NCBI GenBank assembly: GCA_030373505.1
Contig: JAUCYS010000001.1
Location: 248,001-312,000, forward strand
DNA length: 64,000 nucleotides
Direction of reading: 5' to 3'
Source: Parasphingorhabdus sp.
Lineage (GTDB): Bacteria > Pseudomonadota > Alphaproteobacteria > Sphingomonadales > Sphingomonadaceae
Below are positions 7,888 to 58,975 of the stretch, piece after piece (within the stretch, counting starts at the first letter, position 1; the number at the start of each line of letters is the position of its first letter). The translations under genes were made by a program, and so were the position numbers. A model generated the notes under the pieces. That model did not search any database. It was not told the origin of the DNA and worked only from the letters and a program-made list of their open reading frames with translations.

Positions 7888-8024
7888 GAATCTCTCCTGT
7901 TTCGGAGAAGTCTAGGCACGGAAATGGCCGCAGGCGACTGACAAAAATGCTTGGAAGAAGCGAATTGTAGTTCTGTTTATAGTGCTGTCCGAGATTGAAC
8001 CCGTTGGGCCCCTCAGCAGACCAA

Positions 8025-10712
8025 TCAGCCGCTATTGCGCAACGCGGTGGCGATGGCATTGAGCGACAGCTGGATGCCTTCGCCGATGCGCGGGTCCTCT
8101 TCACCGGCGCGCAGCCGTTTCATCAGCTCGATCTGCAGATGGTTGAGCGGCTCGATATAGGGCAGGCGCAGTTCTATGCTGTTGAACAAAGACGGGCTTT
8201 TCGCCAGCAGATGCGGTTGGTCGGTAATATCGAGCAGGATATCGCGCGTTTGATACCAGCCGGATCGAATCCGGTTGAAAAAAGCCTGCCCCATCTCCTG
8301 GTCCTCGACCAGCTCCGCATAGCGGGCAGCGATGCCCATATCGGACTTGGCCAGCACCATTTCCATATTGGACAGTGTCGCCTGAAAGAAAGGCCAGCTT
8401 TGCGCCATGTCCCTGAGCTTGGCCTTGTCCTCGAATGCCGACAGCGCCCGTCCGACGCCATACCAGCCGGGCAGCATCACGCGCGCCTGGGCCCAGCTGA
8501 ACACCCAGGGAATCGCGCGCAGATCCTCGATCTTGTCGCTCTTGGTGCGGCTGGCCGGCCGCGATCCGATCTTGAGCTTGGCGATCTCGGTCAGCGGGGT
8601 CATCTGCCGGAAGAAGGTGCGGAACGAATCATCGCCGTAGACCAGGTCGCGATATTCGCCGAAGGCGACCTGCGAGATTTCGTCCATGGCCGCAGCGAAA
8701 TCGGCCTGCACCTTGGCGTCGGTCCGGTCTGGTTCCAGCGAATTGATCAGCACTGCCGATGTCATGGCTTCCAGATTGGCTTCCGCGCCGTCTTCCGTGC
8801 CATATTTGGCGGCAATGACTTCGCCCTGTTCTGTGATCCGGATACGACCGGCAACGGTCCCCTTGGGTTGCGCCTTGATTGCGCCAAAGGCAGAGCCGCC
8901 ACCGCGCCCCACGGCGCCGCCGCGGCCATGGAATAGCTGCATTTTTATGCCAGCCTCGGCAAAGATCGGGGTCAGCGCATCGCTGGCCTTGAACAGGCTC
9001 CAGGTCGAGGTCAGATAGCCGCCGTCCTTGTTGCTGTCGGAATAGCCGATCATCACTTCCTGATGACCGCGCCGCTTGGCCAGCGCGTGCATTTCCGGAA
9101 TGGCAAAGAAATCGGTCATCACTTGCGGCGCATTTTCCAGATCGGCAACCGTCTCGAACAGCGGCACCGCCATGACCGGGCAGGACGGCGCGTATTCCTC
9201 CTCGGTCGGCGCGTGATAGAGACCGGTCTCCATCAGCAGGACGTAGACTTCCAGGATGTCCGAGACGCTTTCGCCATTGCTGATATTGTAATTGGTGATG
9301 ACTTCGGGGCCATATTTGCGATGCGCTTCGGCAGCCGCCCGGATGATCGACAGTTCTTTCGTGGTTTCTTCGCTATAGGCGATCCAAGGGCTGGCCAGCG
9401 GGCGGTTGTTGGCCAGTTCTGCCCGGAGGCGTTTTACGCGCGCCGCCTCATCCAGCGCCAGATAATCGTCTTCAACCCCGGCCTGTTTCAGCAGTTCTGC
9501 CACCACCCGTTCGTGCACGCGGCTGTTCTGACGCATATCGAGCGTGGCGAGGTGAAAGCCGAACAGTTCGACCGTCCGGATCAGGCGGCCCAGTGCGCCG
9601 GAGGTCGCGAACACGCCCTTGCCCGCCGATTTCAGGCCATGGGCAAGGATGACCAGTTCCGCGCGCAGCTCTTGCGGATTGTCATAGGCCTTGGCCGGAA
9701 TCGGCGACTGGCGGCCCGGTACATGGCCGCAGAGCTTGAGATGGGTTTCTGACAGGCGGGCATAAATCCCTGACAAGGCGCGGCGATAGGGCTCGTCCTT
9801 GCGGCTTGGCGCGTCGTCGCCGCTGGCCTCCGCCAGTTCTAGCACGCTCTCCGGCACGTCCGCCAGTTCGGTGGAGATCGAAAGCTCGGCGCCCAGTGTG
9901 TGAACACATGTCAGATAATAGCCGATGACGGTTTCGGCGGCGCGCGACAGGGCTTCCTCCATGGCATTGGCGTCGACAAAGGGATTGCCGTCGCGGTCGC
10001 CGCCAATCCAGCTGTTGAGTTTGAGAAAGCTGGGCAGGCGCGCTCCCAGTATCCGCTCCCATTTCGCATAGAGGCGGGGCAGAACCGGTAGAAACACGTC
10101 CTTCATGTAGCTTTGTGAAATCTGAACTTCGTCGGTGACGAACAGTCGCTCGCGGCGCAAAGGCCGGGTCTGCCAGAGCAGGGCGATCTGGCGCAGGATC
10201 GCGGCATCGAGCATATCGCCCTGGGGCGTTTCTTCTTCGCCCGCGTCTTTCATCAGCAGCAGCTCTGCGATGCGGGCCCTGTGGTCGATGATACTCTTGC
10301 GCCGCACCTCGGTGGGGTGCGCGGTTAGCACCGGGGCAATCAGCGCCTCGTCGAGCAGGTCCAGTATCGCCTGCCGGTCGACCCCCTCGCTGGCCAGCAG
10401 CTCGATCGCCTCGACCACCGTCGCCCCTTTTTCTGCCGCCACGCCCTGGCGATCCTCGGCCAGATTGGCGAGCAGCGAGAAGAGCATGAAGCCGCGGACA
10501 AAGGCGAGAGTTTCGTCGAGCGTCAGTGCGTCGAGACCCGGGTCGATCGCGTCGGCGTCTGCCAGGCCCCGGTGCCGATCGACGCTGGTTGAGCGGATAT
10601 ATTCGGTGCGCCGGTACAGCTCCTCCCCACCATAGGAACGAATGACATCGCCGAGCAGCTTGCCCAGATATTTTATGTCAGGATTTTGGCGGACGTTGAG
10701 GGGCTGTGTCAT
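8025..10712 (-). CDS. ppc: Phosphoenolpyruvate carboxylase
   Basis: Anaplerotic enzyme, PEP + bicarbonate to oxaloacetate. About 895 aa, the usual bacterial length. VLTAHPTEVRRKS holds the catalytic His132; FHGRGGAVGRGGG is the second active-site loop; LPGWYGVG and a C-terminal RNSG (canonically QNTG) are also present. I chose the ATG at 10712 (MTQPLNVRQN), because the upstream in-frame extension of 25 codons has no conserved character. No strong ribosome site is visible. It is a single-gene unit between the HNH nuclease and the molybdopterin gene. Confidence 0.96.
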   Translation of the reverse strand: MTQPLNVRQNPDIKYLGKLLGDVIRSYGGEELYRRTEYIRSTSVDRHRGLADADAIDPGLDALTLDETLAFVRGFMLFSLLANLAEDRQGVAAEKGATVVEAIELLASEGVDRQAILDLLDEALIAPVLTAHPTEVRRKSIIDHRARIAELLLMKDAGEEETPQGDMLDAAILRQIALLWQTRPLRRERLFVTDEVQISQSYMKDVFLPVLPRLYAKWERILGARLPSFLKLNSWIGGDRDGNPFVDANAMEEALSRAAETVIGYYLTCVHTLGAELSISTELADVPESVLELAEASGDDAPSRKDEPYRRALSGIYARLSETHLKLCGHVPGRQSPIPAKAYDNPQELRAELVILAHGLKSAGKGVFATSGALGRLIRTVELFGFHLATLDMRQNSRVHERVVAELLKQAGVEDDYLALDEAARVKRLRAELANNRPLASPWIAYSEETTKELSIIRAAAEAHRKYGPEVITNYNISNGESVSDILEVYVLLMETGLYHAPTEEEYAPSCPVMAVPLFETVADLENAPQVMTDFFAIPEMHALAKRRGHQEVMIGYSDSNKDGGYLTSTWSLFKASDALTPIFAEAGIKMQLFHGRGGAVGRGGGSAFGAIKAQPKGTVAGRIRITEQGEVIAAKYGTEDGAEANLEAMTSAVLINSLEPDRTDAKVQADFAAAMDEISQVAFGEYRDLVYGDDSFRTFFRQMTPLTEIAKLKIGSRPASRTKSDKIEDLRAIPWVFSWAQARVMLPGWYGVGRALSAFEDKAKLRDMAQSWPFFQATLSNMEMVLAKSDMGIAARYAELVEDQEMGQAFFNRIRSGWYQTRDILLDITDQPHLLAKSPSLFNSIELRLPYIEPLNHLQIELMKRLRAGEEDPRIGEGIQLSLNAIATALRNSG

Positions 10713-49194: not shown

Positions 49195-50151
49195 TTAAAG
49201 TCCCAGCGCCGTCGCCGCCTCCCGGATCCGTTTCGCTTCCGCCCCGTCATTCTTGAACGCCGCCAGGCCGCGGGCAAGGGCCTGTTTCGCCTGCGCCGTC
49301 TGGCCCAGTTGCATGCGGCTGCGCATCAGTGTGATCCAGCCGTTGGCATTATCGGGATTGGCCTGCAGTTTCTTGTCGAGGCCTTCAACCATATTGGCGA
49401 TCATCGCTTCCTGCTGGCCAGGTGGGAGAGCAGCGGCGGCCTGCATCTGCTCGCGCGTCGGGCCCGGGATCGCGGCGGTGGCGACCGCAGGGCCGTCGGT
49501 GGCAATGCCGCCGGTTGGCGCGGCGGGGGTTGCCCTGGCGAGCCGGGCGGCGACATCAATGCCTTCCTTTTCCGCGACCTGCCCGATCACGCGGCGGATA
49601 TCTGCGGCATAGGGGGCATCGGCGGGCGTGTCCTCCAGCAGCGCGAACCAGTCATTGATCGCGCCCTTGTGATCGCCGGAAATATCCTTCTGCACCGCGA
49701 GGAAATAGCGCGCCCGCGGGTCCTTCGCGTCCTGTTTCAGCGCATTGCGGAATGCATCGACCGCATCCGGGGGAACCTGCTGGCCGTCGCTCGCCATTAC
49801 CAGGGCTTCGCCCAGCATCGACCAATATTCCGCATTTCCGGGATCGAGCGAGGTGGCCCGTTTCATCGCGGTGGCGGATTCGGCGAACTTGCCGGTTTCA
49901 AAATAGCTCCAGCCGAGCATCCGCCAGCTTTCGGCGTCATCGGGATTGTCCTGCAGCTTCTTTTCCAGGCCGGCGATGACTTCATCGACGCTTGGCGCCG
50001 CTTCGCTTTCGATTCCGCTGGCCGGGCCGGTCGCAGCGCTGTCGTCATTCATGCTGCGATAGACCTGCACCGCGATCGCCGCCAGCGCCAGCACAGCCGC
50101 CAGGATCAGAGCAATGCGGCCGATATTTATCGAAGCAGCGGATTTCGCCAT
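49195..50151 (-). CDS. Membrane-anchored TPR protein, CcmI/CycH-like
   Basis: 318 aa. One N-terminal membrane helix (IGRIALILAAVLALAAIAV) and then tetratricopeptide repeats: AESWRMLGWSYFETGKFAES, AEYWSMLGEALVM, and a second pair near the C-terminus (NANGWITLMRSRMQLGQ). A proline/alanine-rich linker joins the two halves. This is the layout of CcmI, which hands apocytochrome c to the heme lyase. It lies alone, divergent from the redox cluster with the decaheme protein. The ATG at 50151 has GAGGA 6 nt upstream. Confidence 0.8.
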   Translation of the reverse strand: MAKSAASINIGRIALILAAVLALAAIAVQVYRSMNDDSAATGPASGIESEAAPSVDEVIAGLEKKLQDNPDDAESWRMLGWSYFETGKFAESATAMKRATSLDPGNAEYWSMLGEALVMASDGQQVPPDAVDAFRNALKQDAKDPRARYFLAVQKDISGDHKGAINDWFALLEDTPADAPYAADIRRVIGQVAEKEGIDVAARLARATPAAPTGGIATDGPAVATAAIPGPTREQMQAAAALPPGQQEAMIANMVEGLDKKLQANPDNANGWITLMRSRMQLGQTAQAKQALARGLAAFKNDGAEAKRIREAATALGL

Positions 50152-50235
50152 GGTCATTCCTCAAGCTGTTGCGTGTCACGATATGCCCGCGCATGGATAA
50201 GGCGCGCTTTGCTAGCTGACAAGCGCCCAGATAGG

Positions 50236-50251
50236 TGTGATATTTTGCACT
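50236..50251. promoter_or_regulatory. CRP-like dyad upstream of the redox cluster, candidate
   Basis: TGTGA-TATTTT-GCACT: a perfect left CRP half-site with the right half sharing CAC of the TCACA consensus, at the standard 6 bp spacing. It lies 141 bp before the GTG start of the oxidoreductase and 84 bp before the start of the divergent TPR gene. Weak evidence by itself; noted because the next gene carries cyclic-nucleotide-binding domains. Confidence 0.3.
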
Positions 50252-50392: not shown

Positions 50393-52843
50393 GTGTCGGA
50401 CAAGTTTCGAGTAGCCATTATCGGGTCCGGACCAGCGGGCATGAGCGCAGCCGGGCGCGCTGCGCAGTTGAAGCTCAGGCATGTTCTGCTCGAGAAGACC
50501 GACCATCTGTCCGACACCATCTACAAATATCAGAAGGGCAAGCATGTCATGGCGACGCCGAGCCAGCTGGTGCTGCGCTCGGACATGGATTTCGACGCCG
50601 GCAAGCGCGAGGCGATCCTCGAAACCTGGGGCGCCCAGACCGCCAGCCATGGCGTCAATGTCATGTATAATGCCGAGCCGGTCAGAATCGAGGGTGAGGA
50701 AGGCAATTTCACCATCACGCTGAAAAATGGCGAGACGGTGCTGGCGGAAACGATCGTGATGGCGATCGGGACCCAGGGCAACCCCAATCTGATGCGCTGC
50801 CCCGGTGGCGACAACAAGCTGGTCCAGTATCAGCTCGACGATCCCGGCGAATATTATGACGAGCATATCACGGTGATCGGATCGGGTGACGCGGGAATCG
50901 AGAATGCGCTGGGGCTGGCCGCGGATGCGGCGCAGAATAATGTCGTCACCATTCTCAACCGCTCGGCCGAATTTGCCCGGGCCAAGAAAGCCAATGTCAA
51001 GCTGCTGATGGAAGCGGGCGAGCAGGGCAAGGTGATCATCCGCAACGAGACCACACCGGCCGAGGTCCGCGACGGCGAGCTGGTGCTGGAAACCCGCGAT
51101 GGCCAGGAAGTCATCAAGTGCGACCGGATCATCGCCCGCATGGGCAGCGCGCCGCCGCGCAAGTTCGTCGAGGAATGCGGCATAGAATTTACCAGCGAGG
51201 ACCGCGAGGCCTATCCCAAATTGTCGCCGGCGTTCGAGAGCACCAAGAAAGGCATTTATGTCATCGGCGCGCTGGCCGGTTATCCGCTGATCAAGCATTG
51301 CATGAACCAGGGCTATGACGTGATCGAGTTCATCAATGGCAACAAGGACCTGAAGCCGGCCGACGAACCGATCCTCGAAGCGAAATTCCGCGACTTGCCG
51401 GGACGCCGTTCGGTTGATCAATGGCTCGAATTCTTTCGCTCCAATGTGGTCATTCTCAACGATCTGTCGCCCTTGCAGATGCGGGAATTCATGCTCGACA
51501 GCGAGCCGCGCAGCTACGGCCGGGGCGAAGTGATCTTCGAGAAAAATGATCCGGGAAGCTCGCTCTTCGCTATCGCCGAGGGTTCGGTGCTGGTCGAGAT
51601 CAACCCCGATGACCCGTCGATCACGGTGCCGATCGAACAGGGCTCGATTTTCGGCGAGGTCGGCCTGATTTCCGGGCGGCGGCGCGGCGCAACGATCCGC
51701 GCGGCGGACGATGTCATTGTCGTGGAGATTTCGCGCACGGCGGCGCTTAAACTGCAGGCCTCCGTACCCGCGGCGAAGCGCAGGATTACCCAGATATCGA
51801 CGGAGCGGCAATTGCTGCAGATGTTCGGGTCAGGCCTGACCAGGGAAGATATTGCCGAGGTCGTCGAGACCAGCGAGATCCTCAATGTCCGCGCCGGCGA
51901 GGCGATTATCGAGGAGGGCGGTGAGGGCAACGATATTTACGTGATCCGGGTCGGGTCGATGGTGGTCGAGAAACAGATCGGCGGCAAGCCGGTGTTCCTG
52001 TCCTATCTGCCGGCCGGTTCCTATGTCGGCGAAATGACGCTGATCGCCGGCGGCTATCGCACCGCGACGGTCAAGGCCGCGATCAAGTCGGAAGTGATCA
52101 AGATCAACGGCGAAGCGTTCAAGAAGGTACTCGATGCGCACCCGGACCTGATGCGCAAGGCCAAGAAGGAAATGGCCGAGCGGCAGGATATCAACGCTTT
52201 TGTCGAGGCGAAGAAGGACAGTTTCTCGGGCGTCGTCGACATGTATTCGGGGATTGCCAATTTCCTGGTCGACAATGGCATTGGCGAGGCCACAGACGTG
52301 TTGCTGATCGACGAGAATCTGTGCGTCGGTTGCGACAATTGCGAGAAAGCCTGTGCCGACAGCCATGAGGGCCTGTCGCGGCTCGACCGCGAGGCAGGGC
52401 GCACCTATGCGCATCTGCATGTGCCGACCAGCTGCCGCCACTGCGAGCATCCGCACTGCATGTCCGACTGCCCGCCCGACGCGATCCACCGCGGTCCCGA
52501 TGGCGAGGTGTTTATCGACGACAGCTGTATCGGCTGCGGCAATTGCCAGCGCTATTGCCCTTATGGCGTGATCCGGATGGACAAGGTGCCGCCGAAGAAG
52601 CCGGGGCTGCTGAGCTGGCTGTTGCTTGGTGCGGGGCCGGGGCCGGGGGAGCCAGACAAGGCGTGGGCCAAGAAACACAGCGATCCTTCGGTGGAGAAGC
52701 CGAAGAAGGCGATCAAATGCGATATGTGCGCCGGGATCAAGGGGGGACCCGCATGTGTTCGCGCCTGTCCGACCGGGGCGGCGATCCGGGTGGCGCCGGA
52801 GGAATTTCTGACGGTGTCGAAGCTGGAAGGGGAGGAGGTGTGA
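50393..52843 (+). CDS. FAD/NAD(P) oxidoreductase fused to two cyclic-nucleotide-binding domains and a four-cluster ferredoxin
   Basis: 816 aa, cytoplasmic (no signal or membrane helix). Residues 1-320: thioredoxin-reductase-like flavoprotein with FAD site GSGPAGMSAAG near 11 and NAD(P) site GSGDAG at 163-168; the redox CxxC of thioredoxin reductase is absent. Residues ~370-455 and ~485-580: two cNMP-binding domains, each keeping the GE...R phosphate-binding cassette (FGEVGLISGRRRGAT; GEMTLIAGGYRTAT). Residues 644-792: sixteen cysteines in four [4Fe-4S] motifs, as in DmsB/HybA-type subunits (644/647/650/654; 681/684/689/693; 712/715/718/722; 776/779/788/792). GTG start with GGAAG upstream; an ATG at 50348 is an alternative. 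It heads the redox cluster. Confidence 0.93.
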   Translation: MSDKFRVAIIGSGPAGMSAAGRAAQLKLRHVLLEKTDHLSDTIYKYQKGKHVMATPSQLVLRSDMDFDAGKREAILETWGAQTASHGVNVMYNAEPVRIEGEEGNFTITLKNGETVLAETIVMAIGTQGNPNLMRCPGGDNKLVQYQLDDPGEYYDEHITVIGSGDAGIENALGLAADAAQNNVVTILNRSAEFARAKKANVKLLMEAGEQGKVIIRNETTPAEVRDGELVLETRDGQEVIKCDRIIARMGSAPPRKFVEECGIEFTSEDREAYPKLSPAFESTKKGIYVIGALAGYPLIKHCMNQGYDVIEFINGNKDLKPADEPILEAKFRDLPGRRSVDQWLEFFRSNVVILNDLSPLQMREFMLDSEPRSYGRGEVIFEKNDPGSSLFAIAEGSVLVEINPDDPSITVPIEQGSIFGEVGLISGRRRGATIRAADDVIVVEISRTAALKLQASVPAAKRRITQISTERQLLQMFGSGLTREDIAEVVETSEILNVRAGEAIIEEGGEGNDIYVIRVGSMVVEKQIGGKPVFLSYLPAGSYVGEMTLIAGGYRTATVKAAIKSEVIKINGEAFKKVLDAHPDLMRKAKKEMAERQDINAFVEAKKDSFSGVVDMYSGIANFLVDNGIGEATDVLLIDENLCVGCDNCEKACADSHEGLSRLDREAGRTYAHLHVPTSCRHCEHPHCMSDCPPDAIHRGPDGEVFIDDSCIGCGNCQRYCPYGVIRMDKVPPKKPGLLSWLLLGAGPGPGEPDKAWAKKHSDPSVEKPKKAIKCDMCAGIKGGPACVRACPTGAAIRVAPEEFLTVSKLEGEEV

Positions 52844-52881
52844 GACCGTCTCCTTGCCCTCAACCGGATCGCTATCCCCGC

Positions 52882-52952
52882 ACCGTTCGTGCTGAGCTTG
52901 TCGAAGCACCGCGTCTTGCCAGCTGTCCTTCGACAAGCTCAGGACGAACGGT
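52882..52952. repeat. Sphingomonad dispersed inverted repeat inside the redox operon
   Basis: Two 25 bp arms (52882-52906 and 52928-52952) are complementary with one mismatch, separated by 21 bp. The arm resembles CTTCGACAAGCTCAGGACGA, a repeat I know as dispersed in Sphingomonadales genomes. It lies 38 bp after the oxidoreductase stop and 42 bp before the next start, so the transcript would form a long hairpin between the two genes. Confidence 0.85.
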
Positions 52953-52994
52953 GGATATAGAGGCGGTAACCGCTCCGAACGGGAGTTTTGCCTG

Positions 52995-53876
52995 ATGGCC
53001 AGCAAAGCCATCAACGGCCAATCCGGTCGCAAGAAGGTCGCGATGCACGACGGCTTTCTCAAACATGCCGGCTATCGCTGGCTGAAGATTTCGGCGGCGA
53101 TCATGCTGGTCTGTATCGTCAGCTATATGTTCATCGACGTGTCGCCGCGCCACAATGGCGGCAGCTGGTACGGCTATACGCTGGGCACGATCGGTGCGCT
53201 GCTGATCCTGTGGCTGACCATGCTCGGGGTGCGCAAGCGGGCGATGACGCCGGGCTCGTGGTCGCTCAAGGCCTGGACCTCGGCGCATATCTATCTCGGC
53301 CTCAGCCTGATCGTGATCGGCACGCTGCACACCGGTTTCCAGCTCGGCTGGAACATCCACACCGCGGCCTATGTGTTCATGATGATCGTGATCATTTCCG
53401 GCATCGTCGGGATCTATTTTTACGTCACCATCCCGAAAGCGCTGTCCGACAATCGCGACGAGATGACGGAGACGGAAATGCTCGAAAATCTGCGCTCGCT
53501 CGACCGGCAGCTGCACGAGGCGGCGCAGCCGCTGTCGGCGGGCCATGCCGCGCTGGTGCTGCAGTCGCTCGAGCAGGATCCGTTTGGCGGCGGTTTCTTC
53601 CGGCGTATTTCCGGTCGCTATCCCGATTGCGCCACCCGCCAGGCGCAGGCGGACCTGCGCCGCGAGCGCGCCTATCAGCCCAAAATGGGTGGCGACGATC
53701 CGCTCGACAAGGTCGATGCATTGCTCGAGAAAAAGGAAGCGACGCTGGCCCGCGTCCGCCGCCACCTCAAGCTCAAGGCGATGTTGCAGGTGTGGCTGTT
53801 CGTGCACGTGCCGATGACCTTTGCCCTGATCGCTGCGCTCACCGCGCATATCATCAGCGTGTTTTTCTACTGGTAG
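52995..53876 (+). CDS. Five-helix membrane protein, probable diheme cytochrome b
   Basis: 293 aa. Membrane helices near 30-48, 61-79, 97-115, 124-144 and 264-292, with a ~115-residue charged cytoplasmic loop between the last two. His98 and His112 in helix 3 and His271 and His285 in helix 5 are each 14 residues apart, the spacing of the two bis-His hemes in cytochrome b of the bc1 complex. It is therefore likely to carry one heme b near each membrane face. I do not recognise a named family. It follows the oxidoreductase and precedes the decaheme protein by 15 bp, and would pass electrons between them. GGGAG precedes the ATG. Confidence 0.85.
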   Translation: MASKAINGQSGRKKVAMHDGFLKHAGYRWLKISAAIMLVCIVSYMFIDVSPRHNGGSWYGYTLGTIGALLILWLTMLGVRKRAMTPGSWSLKAWTSAHIYLGLSLIVIGTLHTGFQLGWNIHTAAYVFMMIVIISGIVGIYFYVTIPKALSDNRDEMTETEMLENLRSLDRQLHEAAQPLSAGHAALVLQSLEQDPFGGGFFRRISGRYPDCATRQAQADLRRERAYQPKMGGDDPLDKVDALLEKKEATLARVRRHLKLKAMLQVWLFVHVPMTFALIAALTAHIISVFFYW

Positions 53877-53891
53877 GATGGAGAGCCAAAT

Positions 53892-55697
53892 ATGACCTTC
53901 ATCGTTCGCCAGATCGCGACCACCGCCGATGGCCGGGAGATCATCCGGTCCCATCCCTTTGCAGCGGATGAAATCGGCATCGGCCGCAGCACGACCAATG
54001 CCATCCACCTGCCCGATCTCGCGGTCAATCCGGATCATGCGACGATCCGCAAACGCGACGATGGCCAGATAATCGTCGAAAGCACATCGGGCCAGAATTT
54101 CACGCTCGACGGCAAGCACCGGATTGCGGTCACCGTCGATCCTTCCGCAGGGGCGGAACTCGGCTTTGGCGGCCATGTGATCACCGTCAGCGAAGAGGGC
54201 GATGATGTTGTCCTGACCGTCAAGCGGGTCGAGGCGCTATCCGATTCCGCCGAAATTCGCAGCGAATCGACCCTCTACACGCTCAAGGGCCTGCTCCCGG
54301 GCAAGCGGATCAGCGCCTGGGGCTTTGTGGTGCTGGTGCTGGCGGCCTTTCTGGTCTGGCCGATTTACAGCTGGGCAACCTGGCGCGGGGTTGAGGAACG
54401 GCCGGATCAGTTCCACGCCGACACCATGTGGTCGTCCGGCGCCCTGAGCAGCGCTCACCATGCGCTCGAAAAGGACTGCCAGGCCTGCCATGTCGATGCC
54501 TTTGTCACCGTCAAGGACGAGACCTGCCTGACCTGTCACACAGGGGATGCGCATGATCATGCGGCCAAGCCGCGGCTGCTGGCCGCCCGCGGCGACCCGG
54601 AAGGGCTTGAGGTGATCGGTGCCGCCTTTGCCTCCGCCTTCAACAAGCCGCCGGGGAGGTGTGTCGAATGTCACAGCGAGCATGAGGGTGCCGGTGCTAT
54701 GGAACCGACAGCGCAGAAATTCTGCGCGGATTGCCACGACGGGATGGATGGGCGTTTGACCGATACAAAACTGGAAAATGCGTCCGACTTTGGTATTGCC
54801 CATCCGCAATTCCGGCCGGCCGTGCTGGTCAGCCCCGGCGGCAAGAACCCGCCGCGCACGCGGATCTCGCTCGATGACAAGCCGACCGAGAATAATGGTC
54901 TCAAATTTCCCCACGCCATGCATCTGTCGCGCACCGGCGGAGTCGCCCAGATGGGACGGCGGCTGTCGGCGGATTACGGTTTCGGCGATTCGCTGGTCTG
55001 CAAGGACTGTCATACGCCCGATGCCAACGGGGTGCGCTTCGAGCCGGTCGACATGAAGGAGGATTGCAGCATGTGTCACAGTCTCGCCTTTGACGAGATT
55101 GGCGGCACCGTCCGCACCTTGCGCCACGGCGAACCGGAAATGGTCCAGGCCGATCTGCGTGCTTATTATCGCTCGACAGGGCCGAGCCGGCCGATCAATC
55201 TCGGGGGCATGGCGCGGCGCCGTCCGGGGGCCGGCCACGAGGCCCGTGTGGCCAGCGACTATGCCCGTGCCGTCCGTTTCCGTCCGAGCCGTGCCAATCT
55301 CGCGATCCGCCAGGTCTTCTCGCCCGGCGGTGCCTGTTTCGACTGCCATGGCGTGACCCCGCCGACGGCAGCTGGCCGCGTCGACTATGGCATCAAGCCG
55401 GTCAGTCAGACCGATCGCTATATGCATAATGGCTGGTTCAGCCACGAAGCCCATAAAGAGGAAAGCTGCACCAGCTGTCACAACGCGCCTGCCTCGAAGA
55501 GCGCCGATGACCTGCTGTTGCCGGGAATCAAGACCTGCCGCGAATGCCATGGCGGCGAATTTCAGAAAACAGCGGATGTGCCGTCGACCTGTGCCATGTG
55601 CCACGATTATCATGCCGACGATGGCGCGCCCTGGCTGATCAGGGAAGAACAGAAGGACAAGCAGCAAAAGCCGGACCGACAGATTGTCCGCCGGTAG
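53892..55697 (+). CDS. FHA-domain decaheme cytochrome c, membrane-anchored
   Basis: 601 aa. Residues 1-112: FHA domain with GRSTTNAIHLPD (31-42) and NPDHA replacing the usual SRxHA, so the phosphothreonine-binding Arg, Asn and His are kept. Residues ~142-162: single membrane helix, cytoplasmic N-terminus. Residues 196-571: ten CxxCH heme sites (196, 212, 257, 278, 370, 392, 482, 526, 549, 567), with extra His as in the cytochrome c3 type (FPHAMH, FSHEAH) that may serve as distal ligands. The hemes must lie in the periplasm, where heme is attached. GGAGAG precedes the ATG. The combination of FHA and multiheme c in one chain is unusual. Confidence 0.93.
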   Translation: MTFIVRQIATTADGREIIRSHPFAADEIGIGRSTTNAIHLPDLAVNPDHATIRKRDDGQIIVESTSGQNFTLDGKHRIAVTVDPSAGAELGFGGHVITVSEEGDDVVLTVKRVEALSDSAEIRSESTLYTLKGLLPGKRISAWGFVVLVLAAFLVWPIYSWATWRGVEERPDQFHADTMWSSGALSSAHHALEKDCQACHVDAFVTVKDETCLTCHTGDAHDHAAKPRLLAARGDPEGLEVIGAAFASAFNKPPGRCVECHSEHEGAGAMEPTAQKFCADCHDGMDGRLTDTKLENASDFGIAHPQFRPAVLVSPGGKNPPRTRISLDDKPTENNGLKFPHAMHLSRTGGVAQMGRRLSADYGFGDSLVCKDCHTPDANGVRFEPVDMKEDCSMCHSLAFDEIGGTVRTLRHGEPEMVQADLRAYYRSTGPSRPINLGGMARRRPGAGHEARVASDYARAVRFRPSRANLAIRQVFSPGGACFDCHGVTPPTAAGRVDYGIKPVSQTDRYMHNGWFSHEAHKEESCTSCHNAPASKSADDLLLPGIKTCRECHGGEFQKTADVPSTCAMCHDYHADDGAPWLIREEQKDKQQKPDRQIVRR

Positions 55698-55724
55698 CGC
55701 AATGAAACACAAGGGAGGGCGCCC

Positions 55725-56573
55725 ATGCTGATCGCGCAGATCACGGATATCCATCTGGGCTTCGACCCCGACAATCCGGCCGAATTCAATCGCAAGCGGC
55801 TCGACCAGGCGATTCGGACGATCTGCGCGATGACCCCGCAACCTGATCTGTTGCTGGCCACCGGCGATCTTGTCGATCGCGGTGATCTGGAAAGCTACCG
55901 CCGGCTTGAAAATGCGCTGTCGGTCGTGCCCTTCCCGGTCCATATGTGCCTCGGCAACCACGATCTGCGCGCCCCGTTCCGCAAGCAATTTGCCGATGTG
56001 CCCGCGCCGGACGGCTTCATCCAGTATGAAGTCGACACCCCGGCGCTGCGGCTGTTGATTCTGGATACGCTGGAGGAGGGCCGGCACGGCGGTGCCTTTT
56101 GCGAAACCCGCGCGGCATGGCTGTCGGCGCGGCTTGCCGAACAGACCGACAAGCCGACGATCCTGATCCTGCATCATCCGCCGGTGGACAGCGGCATCGA
56201 GTGGATGACCACCCATCCGGACGAACCCTGGGTTACGCGGCTGGCCGACACGCTCGCAGGCCATGATCAGGTCAAGGGCATGATCAGCGGGCATCTGCAC
56301 CGCAATATTTCGGCCTGGTGGGGGGATATCAGCCTGGCGGTCTGTGCCTCGACCGCGCCGCAGGTGGCGCTGGACCTGAGCCCGATTGACCCCGACCATC
56401 CCGACGGCCGCAAGATGATCGTCGCCGACCCGCCGGCGATCGCGCTGCATTACTGGAACGGGCGCCAGCTGATCAGCCATTTCGAAAATGCCGAGGACCA
56501 TGTCATGCTGGCCCGCTATGACGAACATCTGCAGCCGCTGGTGCGCGCGCTGCTGGCCGAGCGGCCCGAATAG
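55725..56573 (+). CDS. Metallophosphoesterase, CpdA-like class III cyclic-nucleotide phosphodiesterase
   Basis: 282 aa, cytoplasmic. Bimetal calcineurin-type site: Asp8 and His10 (TDIH), Asp48 (GDLVDRG), Asn78/His79 (GNHD), His in LHHPP and GHLH. Closest in layout to CpdA, which hydrolyses cAMP, and to glycerophosphodiester enzymes of the same family. AGGGAGG precedes the ATG, 27 bp after the decaheme gene. Next to a protein with two cNMP-binding domains, a role in lowering the cyclic nucleotide that controls it is an attractive inference. Confidence 0.9.
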   Translation: MLIAQITDIHLGFDPDNPAEFNRKRLDQAIRTICAMTPQPDLLLATGDLVDRGDLESYRRLENALSVVPFPVHMCLGNHDLRAPFRKQFADVPAPDGFIQYEVDTPALRLLILDTLEEGRHGGAFCETRAAWLSARLAEQTDKPTILILHHPPVDSGIEWMTTHPDEPWVTRLADTLAGHDQVKGMISGHLHRNISAWWGDISLAVCASTAPQVALDLSPIDPDHPDGRKMIVADPPAIALHYWNGRQLISHFENAEDHVMLARYDEHLQPLVRALLAERPE

Positions 56574-56752
56574 CCCCGAACAGCGATCTCCGGCGATGTT
56601 GTTCATCGCCGGTAAAATGTCGTTCGTCTAATAATTGATTTCCTGCGAAACCTTTTTTGCGTTTCCCCCCGGCTTTGGGTAGACCATTCCCAATTGCGCC
56701 TTGCGCGCTTGCCTCGACCCGCAGCCGCGGTCCGATATCTGGAGAGATTTTT

Positions 56753-58975
56753 ATGCGATTCACCCTATCCACCCGCAAGTTTTTTCTGGGCGTGTCCAGC
56801 GCCGCGCTGATCGGCGCGACCGCGACACCCGCCCTGGCCGACGATCATGGAAAAAAAATGACAACAGCAGAATTGAACAAGATGAGCGCGACGCAGGCGG
56901 CTGCGGCTGATGCGACCGAGAACAGCATTCTCCAGGCCTGGACCGGCCCCTATGACGGCGTCCCGCCATGGGATGAGGTGAAGGCCTCCGACTTCCCCGA
57001 AGCCTTCCAAAAAACGATGGACAAGATCCAGTCCGATGTGAACGCGATCCGCGACAATCCGGCGCCCGCAACCTTTGAAAATTTCACCGCGCCGATGGAA
57101 CTGGTGGGCCAGGAAGCGAATAATCTCTTCGCCATCTGGGGCGTCTATTCGAGCAATCTGTCGAACGAAGAGGTTCGGGAAATCCAGGGCGAATGGCTGC
57201 CGAAAGTCTCCGCCTTTTTCGACCAGCTGACGCTTGATCCGAAGCTGCTCGCCAAGACCAAGGCGGTCTATGACAATCGCGAATCCGCCGGTCTCGATGC
57301 CAAGCAGATCCGGCTGGTCGAGCGCAATTATGAACAGCTGGTGCGTGACGGCGCGCTGCTCAGCGGCGCCGACAAGGAGCAGTTGATCGCCTATAACACC
57401 GAGCTGTCGAAGGCGTTCAACGACTTCTCCAACAAGGTGCTGGCCGACGAGGAAAGCTTCATCTATCTGACCGACGAGGCCGATCTTGCCGGCCTGCCGG
57501 ACAGTTTTGTCGCTTCGCTGGCCGAAGCCGCCGAGGAACAGGGCAAGACCGGCTGGGCGCTGAAAAACACCCGCTCGGTGATGCAGCCCTTCCTGGAAAA
57601 CAGCACCCGCCGCGATCTGCGCGAGAAGGTCTACACGGCCTATATCAACCGCGGCGACAATGGCGATGCCAACGATACCAACACGACCATCGCGAAAATC
57701 CTGAAGCTGCGCGCCGACCGCGCCAAGCTGCTCGGCTTCAAGACCCACGCCCATTACCGCATGGCCGACACGATGGCGAAGGAGCCGGAAGCGGCGATGG
57801 ATCTGATGATGAAGGTCTGGCCCGCTGCCGTCGCCCGGGTGAAGGAAGAAGTCGCCGATATGCAGGCGATTGCCGACGCCGAGGGTGCGGATATCACCAT
57901 CGAGCCATGGGATTACCGCTATTATGCGGAAAAGGTCCGCAAGGCGAAATATGACCTCGATTCCGCCGAGATCAAACCCTATTTCCAGCTCGACAAGATG
58001 ATGGACGCGCTGTTCGATGCGGCGGGCAAGCTCTATGGCCTGACCTTCACCGAAACCACCGGCAGCATCCCGGTCTTCGATCCAGAGGTGCGCACCTTCG
58101 AGGTCAAGCGCGGCGACAAGGTGATCGGCGTGCAGTTTTTCGACAATTTTGCCCGCAACGGCAAGCGGTCGGGCGCCTGGATGACCACCTACAAGGACAA
58201 GTACAAGCTGGCGGGTAAGAACAATTACACGATCTCGGCGAACAACAATAATTTCGTCAAGGGCGGCGACGGTGAACCGACGCTGATCAGCCTCGACGAT
58301 GCCTCGACCCTGTTCCACGAATTCGGCCACGCGCTGCATTATCTCAACTATGACATCACCTATCCGGGTCTTGCCAATACGCCGCGCGACTTTGTCGAAT
58401 ATCCGAGCCAGGTGAACGAGAACTGGCTGATGACGCCCTATATCTTGTCGACCTACGCCACTCACTACAAGACCGGCGAGCCGATCCCGAAGGAACTGGT
58501 CGACAAGATCCAGGCCTCGAAGACCTTCAACGAGGGTTTCTCGACGGTCGAATATCTGTCCAGCGCTATCGTCGACATGAAGCTGCACAATCGCGAGGAG
58601 CCGGTCACCGATCCCGACAAGTTCGAGCGCGAGACGCTGACCGAAATCGGCATGCCGAAAGAGATCGCGATGCGCCACCGCCTGCCGCAGTTCAACCATC
58701 TGTTCTCGTCAGACGCCTATTCAGCCGGCTATTACAGCTATCTCTGGTCGGAAACGATGGACGCCGACACCTGGGCGGCGTTCGAGGAAGCAGGCAGCCC
58801 GTGGGACAAGCAGACGGCGGAACGCTTCCGCATGATCCTGCTGTCGACCGGCAACGAAACCGACCGCAAGGAAGCCTATCGCAAATTCCGCGGCCGTGAT
58901 CCGGAGGTCAAATATATCCTCAAGAAGCGCGGCTTCCCGGTACCGGGCGAGAGCGCGGATGGCGGCGACAACTAG
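56753..58975 (+). CDS. Exported M3-family metallopeptidase (Dcp-like)
   Basis: 740 aa. Signal peptide ending ATPALA, cleaved near 25, then a long helical oligopeptidase fold. The zinc site is HEFGH at 522-526 with the downstream Glu in the VNENW region. Cuts short peptides, probably dipeptides from the C-terminus, in the periplasm. I chose the ATG at 56753 with GGAGAG upstream; an earlier start would delete the signal peptide's terminal position. It is monocistronic, ended by a good terminator. Confidence 0.95.
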   Translation: MRFTLSTRKFFLGVSSAALIGATATPALADDHGKKMTTAELNKMSATQAAAADATENSILQAWTGPYDGVPPWDEVKASDFPEAFQKTMDKIQSDVNAIRDNPAPATFENFTAPMELVGQEANNLFAIWGVYSSNLSNEEVREIQGEWLPKVSAFFDQLTLDPKLLAKTKAVYDNRESAGLDAKQIRLVERNYEQLVRDGALLSGADKEQLIAYNTELSKAFNDFSNKVLADEESFIYLTDEADLAGLPDSFVASLAEAAEEQGKTGWALKNTRSVMQPFLENSTRRDLREKVYTAYINRGDNGDANDTNTTIAKILKLRADRAKLLGFKTHAHYRMADTMAKEPEAAMDLMMKVWPAAVARVKEEVADMQAIADAEGADITIEPWDYRYYAEKVRKAKYDLDSAEIKPYFQLDKMMDALFDAAGKLYGLTFTETTGSIPVFDPEVRTFEVKRGDKVIGVQFFDNFARNGKRSGAWMTTYKDKYKLAGKNNYTISANNNNFVKGGDGEPTLISLDDASTLFHEFGHALHYLNYDITYPGLANTPRDFVEYPSQVNENWLMTPYILSTYATHYKTGEPIPKELVDKIQASKTFNEGFSTVEYLSSAIVDMKLHNREEPVTDPDKFERETLTEIGMPKEIAMRHRLPQFNHLFSSDAYSAGYYSYLWSETMDADTWAAFEEAGSPWDKQTAERFRMILLSTGNETDRKEAYRKFRGRDPEVKYILKKRGFPVPGESADGGDN

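Follow-up and report, generated by a model that had tools for sequence, protein, structure and literature searches.

Do four consecutive genes on one strand of Parasphingorhabdus sp. DNA, at positions 50393-56573 of the 64,000-nucleotide stretch analysed here (the window), form a chain that moves electrons across the inner membrane, and if so, in which direction, under which control and towards which partner? A first-pass annotation had seen in them all the parts of a path from NAD(P)H through flavin adenine dinucleotide (FAD), four [4Fe-4S] clusters and two b hemes to ten c hemes. The four open reading frames (ORFs), here called P1 to P4, were confirmed in one row at those positions, and the parts of the path are backed by domain matches in Pfam and NCBIfam and by invariant ligands. 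From this make-up we propose, with moderate confidence, that P1 to P4 supply the inner-membrane part of a controlled chain for electron export, gated by cyclic AMP (cAMP) and driven by NAD(P)H. Electron conduits have mostly been studied in metal-cycling bacteria. About a third of the sampled genomes of the family carry P3 (72/199, in 39 of 96 genera), nearly all of these carriers hold a second multiheme module, and if our reading is true, electron flow in the envelope would be switchable post-translationally by cAMP. The features of the block are as follows (CNB, cyclic-nucleotide-binding domain).

50393-52843, + strand: P1, FAD/NAD(P)H-CNB-CNB-four [4Fe-4S] protein, 816 codons (GTG start) plus stop, with Rossmann motifs, two CNB domains and 16 Cys
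50405-51313, + strand: P1 flavin/NAD(P) region, Pyr_redox_2 by Pfam, residues 5-307, YpdA-like (TIGR04018, 117.3 bits)
51509-51754, + strand: P1 first CNB domain, residues 373-454, Glu422 and Arg431 invariant
51899-52195, + strand: P1 second CNB domain, residues about 503-601, Glu547 and Arg556 invariant
52301-52789, + strand: P1 four-cluster ferredoxin region, formate hydrogenlyase/DmsB-like, residues about 637-799
52995-53876, + strand: P2, predicted five-helix inner-membrane protein of the diheme-b type, with W94-H98-H112, W267-H271-H285 and S135-G136..G139
53892-55697, + strand: P3, FHA-like domain, transmembrane segment and decaheme cytochrome c, with ten CXXCH and ten further conserved His
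53979-54125, + strand: P3 FHA-like domain, matched by Pfam over residues 30-78, with conserved Gly31-Arg32 and His49 and no conserved Ser at position 46
54309-54377, + strand: P3 membrane segment, residues about 140-162, the sole hydrophobic segment above the threshold used
54477-55604, + strand: P3 ten CXXCH heme-binding motifs, residues 196-571
55725-56573, + strand: P4, calcineurin-like phosphoesterase of the cyclic-nucleotide phosphodiesterase superfamily (Pfam Metallophos)

Conservation of the block

A scan of named genomes with a P1 alignment confirmed at least 548 relatives among at least 595 stretches, and the best 80 loci (numbered with L, and genomes with G) were analysed; being the nearest relatives, they are biased towards conservation. 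Their record titles are mostly those of Sphingomonadales genera, with a few given only as Alphaproteobacteria, Pseudomonadota or uncultured bacterium. Among the matches listed, the named loci closest to the window belong to Sphingorhabdus/Parasphingorhabdus and Sphingomonadales, and the hosts include Sphingobium, Novosphingobium, Blastomonas and erythrobacters. P2 was found in 77 of the 80 loci and P3 in 76, the remaining three and four loci ending before the gene. P4 was found in 68, ten loci end before it and two (L112 and L132) lack it, in such a way that it is present in 68 of the 70 loci where sequence remains. The first-pass annotation had staked its reading in part on the co-occurrence of the genes in other genomes, and the block is indeed conserved across these loci.

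Two further samples were used, one of the family (199 genomes, 96 genera, 186 of good quality) and one of the phylum (398 genomes). P1 was detected (E ≤ 1e-60) in 15 genomes of the phylum sample, seven of which lie outside the family and hold eight P1 loci. P2 and P3 follow P1 in seven of these eight, that is, in six genomes and in one of the two loci of G199. At the second G199 locus (L165, P1 at 7955-10459) neither P2 nor P3 was recognised, and the next ORF (321 residues) lacks the P2 motifs; this P1 lies near a distant CHASE2 cyclase. Two loci from one genus, L162 (G347) and L164 (G231), encode P1 and P2 as a single fusion of about 1120 residues.

Domains and cofactor ligands

Residue conservation was counted over 129 aligned rows for P1 (window included), 125 for P2 and 120-121 for P3, in which some genomes appear twice, from two collections, so that the rows are not all independent. 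In P1, Pfam recognises Pyr_redox_2/3, two cNMP_binding stretches and Fer4 domains, including PF13247 (41.5 bits, cut-off 26.2). The glycine motifs that mark the FAD and NAD(P) folds are conserved, with one Gly replaced by Ala in four rows, and the 16 Cys of the iron-sulfur (Fe-S) clusters are all kept in 129/129 rows. The match to the YpdA bacillithiol disulfide reductase (TIGR04018) stays under its cut-off, with 117.3 bits against 339.9, and the C-terminus matches four-cluster ferredoxin subunits (7z0s_B with E 1.8e-19 for the whole protein; DmsB with 59 bits). The residues NR..(E)F after the second Rossmann motif, which we take to resemble those of NADPH-using relatives of thioredoxin reductase, suggest a slight preference for NADPH. 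The two CNB domains that had been assigned to the flavoprotein are found again by Pfam, and the Glu/Arg pairs of both (E422/R431 and E547/R556), which we take to be the phosphate-cassette positions of the family, are kept in 129/129 rows, so both domains look competent for binding.

A weak CRP-like site (TGTGATATTTTGCACT, two mismatches) lies upstream of P1, at window positions 50236-50251. With up to two mismatches, the CRP pattern occurs in 20/81 regions upstream of P1, compared with about 8% in simple shuffles, and the FNR pattern in 15/81, compared with about 5%, a possible mild excess among regions that are related by descent.

The only Pfam match of P2 is a sub-threshold one to cytochrome b561 (20.7 bits, cut-off 30.1), and PF01794, the ferric reductase transmembrane domain, gave no match at E ≤ 0.01. 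Five His (H98, H112, H122, H271 and H285) are kept in 125/125 rows, the WX3HX13H motifs on transmembrane helices 3 and 5 in 124/125 and 125/125, and SGXXG on helix 4 (S135-G136..G139 in the window) in 117/125. The AlphaFold model of P2 has long helices at residues 28-46, 58-82, 91-113, 121-154 and 236-292, with a predicted local distance difference test score (pLDDT) of 86.8.

For P3, Pfam returns an FHA domain (22.2 bits, cut-off 20.7) and cytochrome c7/c3. Ten CXXCH are present in 117/120 fetched rows; L162 and L164 show nine CXXCH plus one CX4CH, and L108, in which P3 is cut by a contig end, shows five. Ten His outside the CXXCH motifs are conserved, each in 118 to 121 of the 120-121 rows, as would be expected if the ten hemes had bis-His ligation. 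A Lys-Arg pair precedes the hydrophobic segment and, by the positive-inside rule, would put the FHA-like domain on the cytoplasmic side and the hemes in the periplasm.

P4 had been described as a CpdA-like phosphodiesterase. Its place in the superfamily of cyclic-nucleotide phosphodiesterases holds, and the narrower name is not supported: P4 scores under the cut-offs of both CpdA (NCBIfam PRK11148, 3',5'-cAMP phosphodiesterase; 82.4 against 225 bits) and SpdA (NCBIfam NF050112, 2',3'-cNMP phosphodiesterase; 136.5 against 400 bits). Its best solved relatives are Rv0805 and a phosphohydrolase.

A second module in relatives

The final periplasmic partner had been noted as missing from the window, in which no porin-cytochrome of the MtrB type had been seen. 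In relatives a candidate partner module is encoded elsewhere, with a barrel that looks AlgE-like rather than MtrB-like. Plasmid pMSHV of Sphingobium herbicidovorans carries, after the block and on the other strand, genes whose annotations read multiheme cytochrome, hypothetical protein, heme-binding protein and cytochrome c family protein. Farther along lie genes for a two-partner-secretion transporter and a 2092-residue protein that accompanies it, as well as for a CHASE2 and a CHAT protein. By Pfam and motif analysis, one product is a decaheme-LVIVD protein of 1329 residues with ten CXXCH, an LVIVD repeat region and a hydrophobic, signal-peptide-like start. The others are an HbpS-like protein of 658 residues with a lipobox-like LSSC at its start, a c554-type cytochrome of 454 residues with four CXXCH and one CX4CH, a barrel candidate of 612 residues without a Pfam match, and a CHASE2-class III cyclase; adenylate cyclases are the nearest relatives of its cyclase domain. 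The family of the 612-residue protein (25 sequences) was modelled with AlphaFold (pLDDT 59.7); the model has about 18 strands and matches AlgE (alginate export) best, with E 2.6e-15, and OprD/Occ-type channels next. Neither Pfam nor this low-confidence, AlgE-like model points to a porin of the MtrAB/MtoAB/PioAB kind, the genomes not having been searched with the MtrB family.

The same CHAT, cyclase, two-partner-secretion, c554, HbpS, barrel and LVIVD genes are found in two genomes of the window's genus, on a contig other than that of the P1-P4 block in G153 and distant from the block in G089. In L161, P1-P2-P3-HbpS-barrel-LVIVD stand in one row, and L160 and L159 show parts of it. Other loci show the association in different arrangements: two-partner-secretion genes adjoin the block in L108, L128, L129 and L130, and CHASE2 cyclases of a more distant kind (29-32% identity) occur in L087, L092, L093, L094 and L099.

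The two-partner-secretion pair (L167:17797-25950), an FhaC/ShlB-type transporter and the 2092-residue protein (3111 residues in L182), is located inside the electron-transfer module. The CHAT-domain protein (L167:11841-14924) adjoins the CHASE2 cyclase and has relatives in L182, L092, L093 and L129.

The presence of both modules was compared across the family sample. Of the second module, the LVIVD protein turned up in 71/199 genomes and so did the barrel; among those of good quality each has 67/186, the same number as P3. P3 and the LVIVD protein occur together in 70 genomes, P3 alone in two, the LVIVD protein alone in one and neither in 126, an agreement of 196/199, and the three disagreeing genomes are all incomplete (G000, the window's own; G176, 70% complete, with a P3 fragment; G022, 67% complete, with the LVIVD protein only). 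Fisher's test on this pairing gives 2.7e-50, a value that ignores relatedness. More telling are the genera of mixed state and the wide spacing of the two genes. In the six genera with both states (g15, g29, g35, g73, g79 and g80) P3 and the LVIVD protein are present or absent together in all genomes seen. The distance between them in the 70 genomes is at most 25 kb in 36, at least 29 kb on one contig in 16, and in 18 they are on different contigs, a group that includes fragmented drafts, in which a contig split does not prove distance. Relatives of the CHASE2 cyclase were found in 71/72 P3 genomes vs 8/127 others, and strong ones (E < 1e-160) in 63/72 vs 4/127. In the phylum sample the barrel occurs in 11/398 genomes, all among the 15 with P1, seven in the family and four outside it.

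Relation to described systems

The closest published description is that of He et al. (2017, PMC5566968), whose main text gives the inner-membrane protein of PCC3 and PCC4, two kinds of putative porin-cytochrome clusters, five helices, an SGXXG motif and two WX3HX13H motifs. P2 has all three and, judged by its motifs, fits this class. In PCC4 subgroup II a pfam13247 Fe-S gene precedes the inner-membrane protein, just as the PF13247-bearing P1 precedes P2, and in Oceanospirillum beijerinckii these two genes are annotated as one, which recalls the P1-P2 fusion in L162 and L164 (PMC5566968). For PCC3 the same text reports cytochromes with medians of 34 and 21 hemes; for PCC4 it reports heme numbers of 4, 5 and 10 and the absence of an extracellular cytochrome. 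The set in relatives of the window, with 10 hemes in P3, four CXXCH plus one CX4CH in the c554-type cytochrome and 10 hemes in the LVIVD protein, may by description resemble PCC4, to which a decaheme cytochrome, multiheme cytochromes of smaller size and a porin also belong. It may differ from PCC4 in its heme numbers and in its LVIVD protein, which would be secreted, judged by its signal-peptide-like start.

The first-pass annotation knew of no described system with this combination. A search of the main text of PMC5566968 for FAD, FHA and cyclic nucleotide gave nothing, a term search of the main text of PMC11475568, a survey of outer-membrane multiheme cytochromes, was also without match, and no description of the gene set was found among the open-licence PMC papers listed by the literature searches. 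The claim has to be narrowed: P2 matches the description of the PCC3/PCC4 inner-membrane protein, the Fe-S gene has its counterpart in PCC4 subgroup II, and part of the make-up of P1 may already be drawn in the supplementary domain architectures of He et al.

Other systems share parts of the plan. With the Mtr, Mto and Pio conduits the proposed chain has in common an inner-membrane donor, a periplasmic multiheme cytochrome and an outer-membrane barrel (PMC5566968), but the barrel belongs to no Pfam family and resembles AlgE in its model of about 18 strands, and the entry looks fed by NAD(P)H and not by quinol. Two HX13H pairs for two b hemes, an analogy drawn in PMC5566968, and a cytoplasmic flavin source recall NADPH oxidase and ferric reductase, from which P2 differs in lacking a PF01794 match, in receiving the flavin's electrons, as we propose, via four Fe-S clusters and in having a decaheme cytochrome as its neighbour. 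The C-terminus of P1 is like the four-cluster ferredoxin subunits of formate hydrogenlyase and DmsB; in P1 this region is joined to a CNB-bearing flavoprotein and not to a molybdenum subunit.

Proposed electron path and alternatives

From the gene block, its cofactor ligands and CNB motifs, the fusion of P1 and P2 in two genomes of one genus and the co-occurrence with the second module, we infer a direction of flow, its gating, an order of carriers, a crossing at the outer membrane and a place for the terminal acceptor or substrate. P1 would take hydride from NAD(P)H, NADPH being slightly favoured, and pass electrons through FAD to the four [4Fe-4S] clusters; P2 would carry them across the inner membrane on its two b hemes; and P3, held in the membrane by a single helix that leaves the FHA-like domain on the cytoplasmic side, would receive them on ten periplasmic c hemes. 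Outward flow of this kind is downhill and helped by the membrane potential. Binding of cAMP (or cyclic GMP) to the two CNB domains of P1 may gate the entry of electrons, with the cyclase of the partner cluster as the likely source of cAMP and P4 as a possible terminator of the signal; cAMP gating is the simplest reading because of the competent-looking Glu/Arg pairs and the adenylate-cyclase-like enzyme in the partner cluster. In relatives the electrons would probably go on to the c554-type cytochrome, the HbpS-like lipoprotein, the AlgE-like outer-membrane barrel and the secreted decaheme-LVIVD protein, in such a way that reducing power would be delivered to the outer periplasm or the cell surface. 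The fullest form of this proposal, which we put forward only tentatively, is a complete, cAMP-gated conduit, widespread in sphingomonads, that would lead electrons from NADPH in the cytoplasm all the way to the cell surface; cAMP from the cluster-encoded CHASE2 cyclase would open the flavoprotein and the exit would be a new outer-membrane module (AlgE-like barrel, HbpS-like lipoprotein and decaheme-LVIVD protein) allied with two-partner secretion.

Several observations weigh against such a regulated export path. In the window's own genome (3.13 Mb, 28 contigs, 87.9% complete) searches with the LVIVD protein, the barrel and the cyclase found nothing, and 7/7 of the nearest named relatives examined have the LVIVD protein. 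The two genes found beyond either side of the module in its congeners (between G089 and G153 they share 90% and 89% identity) have no match in this genome either, and a search with a 4.1-kb DNA flank gave only two short weak hits. Since these flanking genes are missing too and the genome is 88% complete, a gap in assembly or binning is the likely explanation, with true loss as a possible alternative. Outside the family, the LVIVD protein was found in 3/7 genomes with P1 (G449, G562 and G554). Another three (G199, G231 and G347), which together with G000 are the P1 genomes of the phylum sample without barrel, have P1-P2-P3 with neither a barrel nor an LVIVD match, and G348 has the barrel and no LVIVD match; the outer module is thus a regular companion within the family and not obligatory in more distant lineages. 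The fold search with P2 against the PDB returned no match with E ≤ 0.001. The FHA domain, placed by the first-pass annotation on the cytoplasmic side of the cytochrome, retains its Pfam match and, by prediction, its side of the membrane; among the residues that we take to form the binding site of this family (Gly-Arg, Ser and His), Gly-Arg is kept in 121/121 rows and His in 119/121, and the Ser position is E, N, D, T or A in most rows. Since the usual Ser is not kept, binding of phosphothreonine by P3 is doubtful. At the outer membrane, a barrel of about 18 strands, as modelled with low confidence (pLDDT 59.7), seems narrow for a decaheme wire, and the LVIVD protein, highly conserved and with only ten CXXCH in 1329 residues, appears more enzyme-like than wire-like.

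With so narrow a barrel and so enzyme-like an LVIVD protein, a periplasmic or surface reductase could take the place of a wire. P1-P3 would then feed an enzyme, the decaheme-LVIVD protein being a substrate-specific reductase and the AlgE/OprD-like barrel a channel for substrate or product (e.g., a metal(loid) oxyanion, a quinone or an organic acceptor). Both the order of the barrel's structural matches, AlgE and then OprD/Occ-type channels, and the low heme density and high conservation of the LVIVD protein suit this arrangement, as does the weak similarity of the latter (L167:31214-35200) to ExtM of the selenite/tellurite reduction operon (64 bits, cut-off 800). However, the ExtM similarity is confined at its best to about 50 residues surrounding a heme motif, we identified no catalytic heme signature, and a conduit too would fit the presence of a c554-type cytochrome and a lipoprotein as partners. 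We regard this arrangement as rather unlikely. We also find it unlikely, and place it lower, that P2 mainly exchanges electrons with ubiquinol, leaving P1 as a side entry or sensor under cyclic-nucleotide control and not the main donor: He et al. proposed that inner-membrane proteins sharing these motifs act on quinone (PMC5566968), and P2 has a fifth invariant His (H122) that would suit it, whereas the fusion and the constant adjacency tie P2 to the flavin-Fe-S protein.

Electrons might also run the other way, from an extracellular or periplasmic donor through P3 and P2 to NAD(P)+ or quinone. Redox proteins are reversible, and PCC3 and PCC4 were described from Fe(II) oxidisers, with a hypothesised inward flow to the quinone pool (PMC5566968). 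Reduction of NAD(P)+ from periplasmic c hemes, on the other hand, is normally uphill and opposed by the membrane potential. The named hosts, moreover, are to our knowledge mostly aerobic heterotrophs, and we judge inward flow to be quite improbable. That the genes are unrelated and merely neighbours is hardly credible at all, and chance adjacency was rejected: their order is common to the best 80 loci, to six of the seven P1 genomes outside the family and to one of the two loci of the seventh, P1 and P2 can be fused, and P3 co-occurs with a second, often unlinked module.

Reduction of tellurite or selenite as the function of the system was considered on the weak ExtM match, and is kept as a lead only. 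Sphingomonas ursincola KR-99, a tellurite reducer, carries the P1-P4 block (L104).

Flanking genes and repeats

Two further features of the window adjoin or interrupt the block.

49195-50157, - strand: divergent TPR protein of the CcmI/CycH/NrfG type (PF23914, 92 bits, cut-off 42), adjoining P1 in 76/80 loci
52881-52953, no strand: inverted repeat resembling repetitive extragenic palindromic (REP) elements, with arms of 32 nt and a 9-nt loop, within the 151-bp P1-P2 spacer

The divergent gene, absent from the list of the first-pass annotation, is likely, from its family match, to encode a factor for c-type cytochrome biogenesis. Among the four best-80 loci in which it was not found, two end before it and two (L080 and L085) lack it. 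On the other side of the block, a Dcp-like M3 peptidase (window 56744-58975) has a match in only 6/80 loci. ORF-based clustering of neighbouring genes returned mostly shadow ORFs in GC-rich DNA and was discarded; Pfam on ten of them gave two metabolic enzymes and eight without match.

As for the repeat, its core was not found at the P1-P2 spacer of the near relatives L080, L081, L083 and L147, and it is present there in L079 and L084. The only two copies of the core CTTCGACAAGCTCAGGACGAAC in the window (up to three mismatches) lie in the arms of this inverted repeat.

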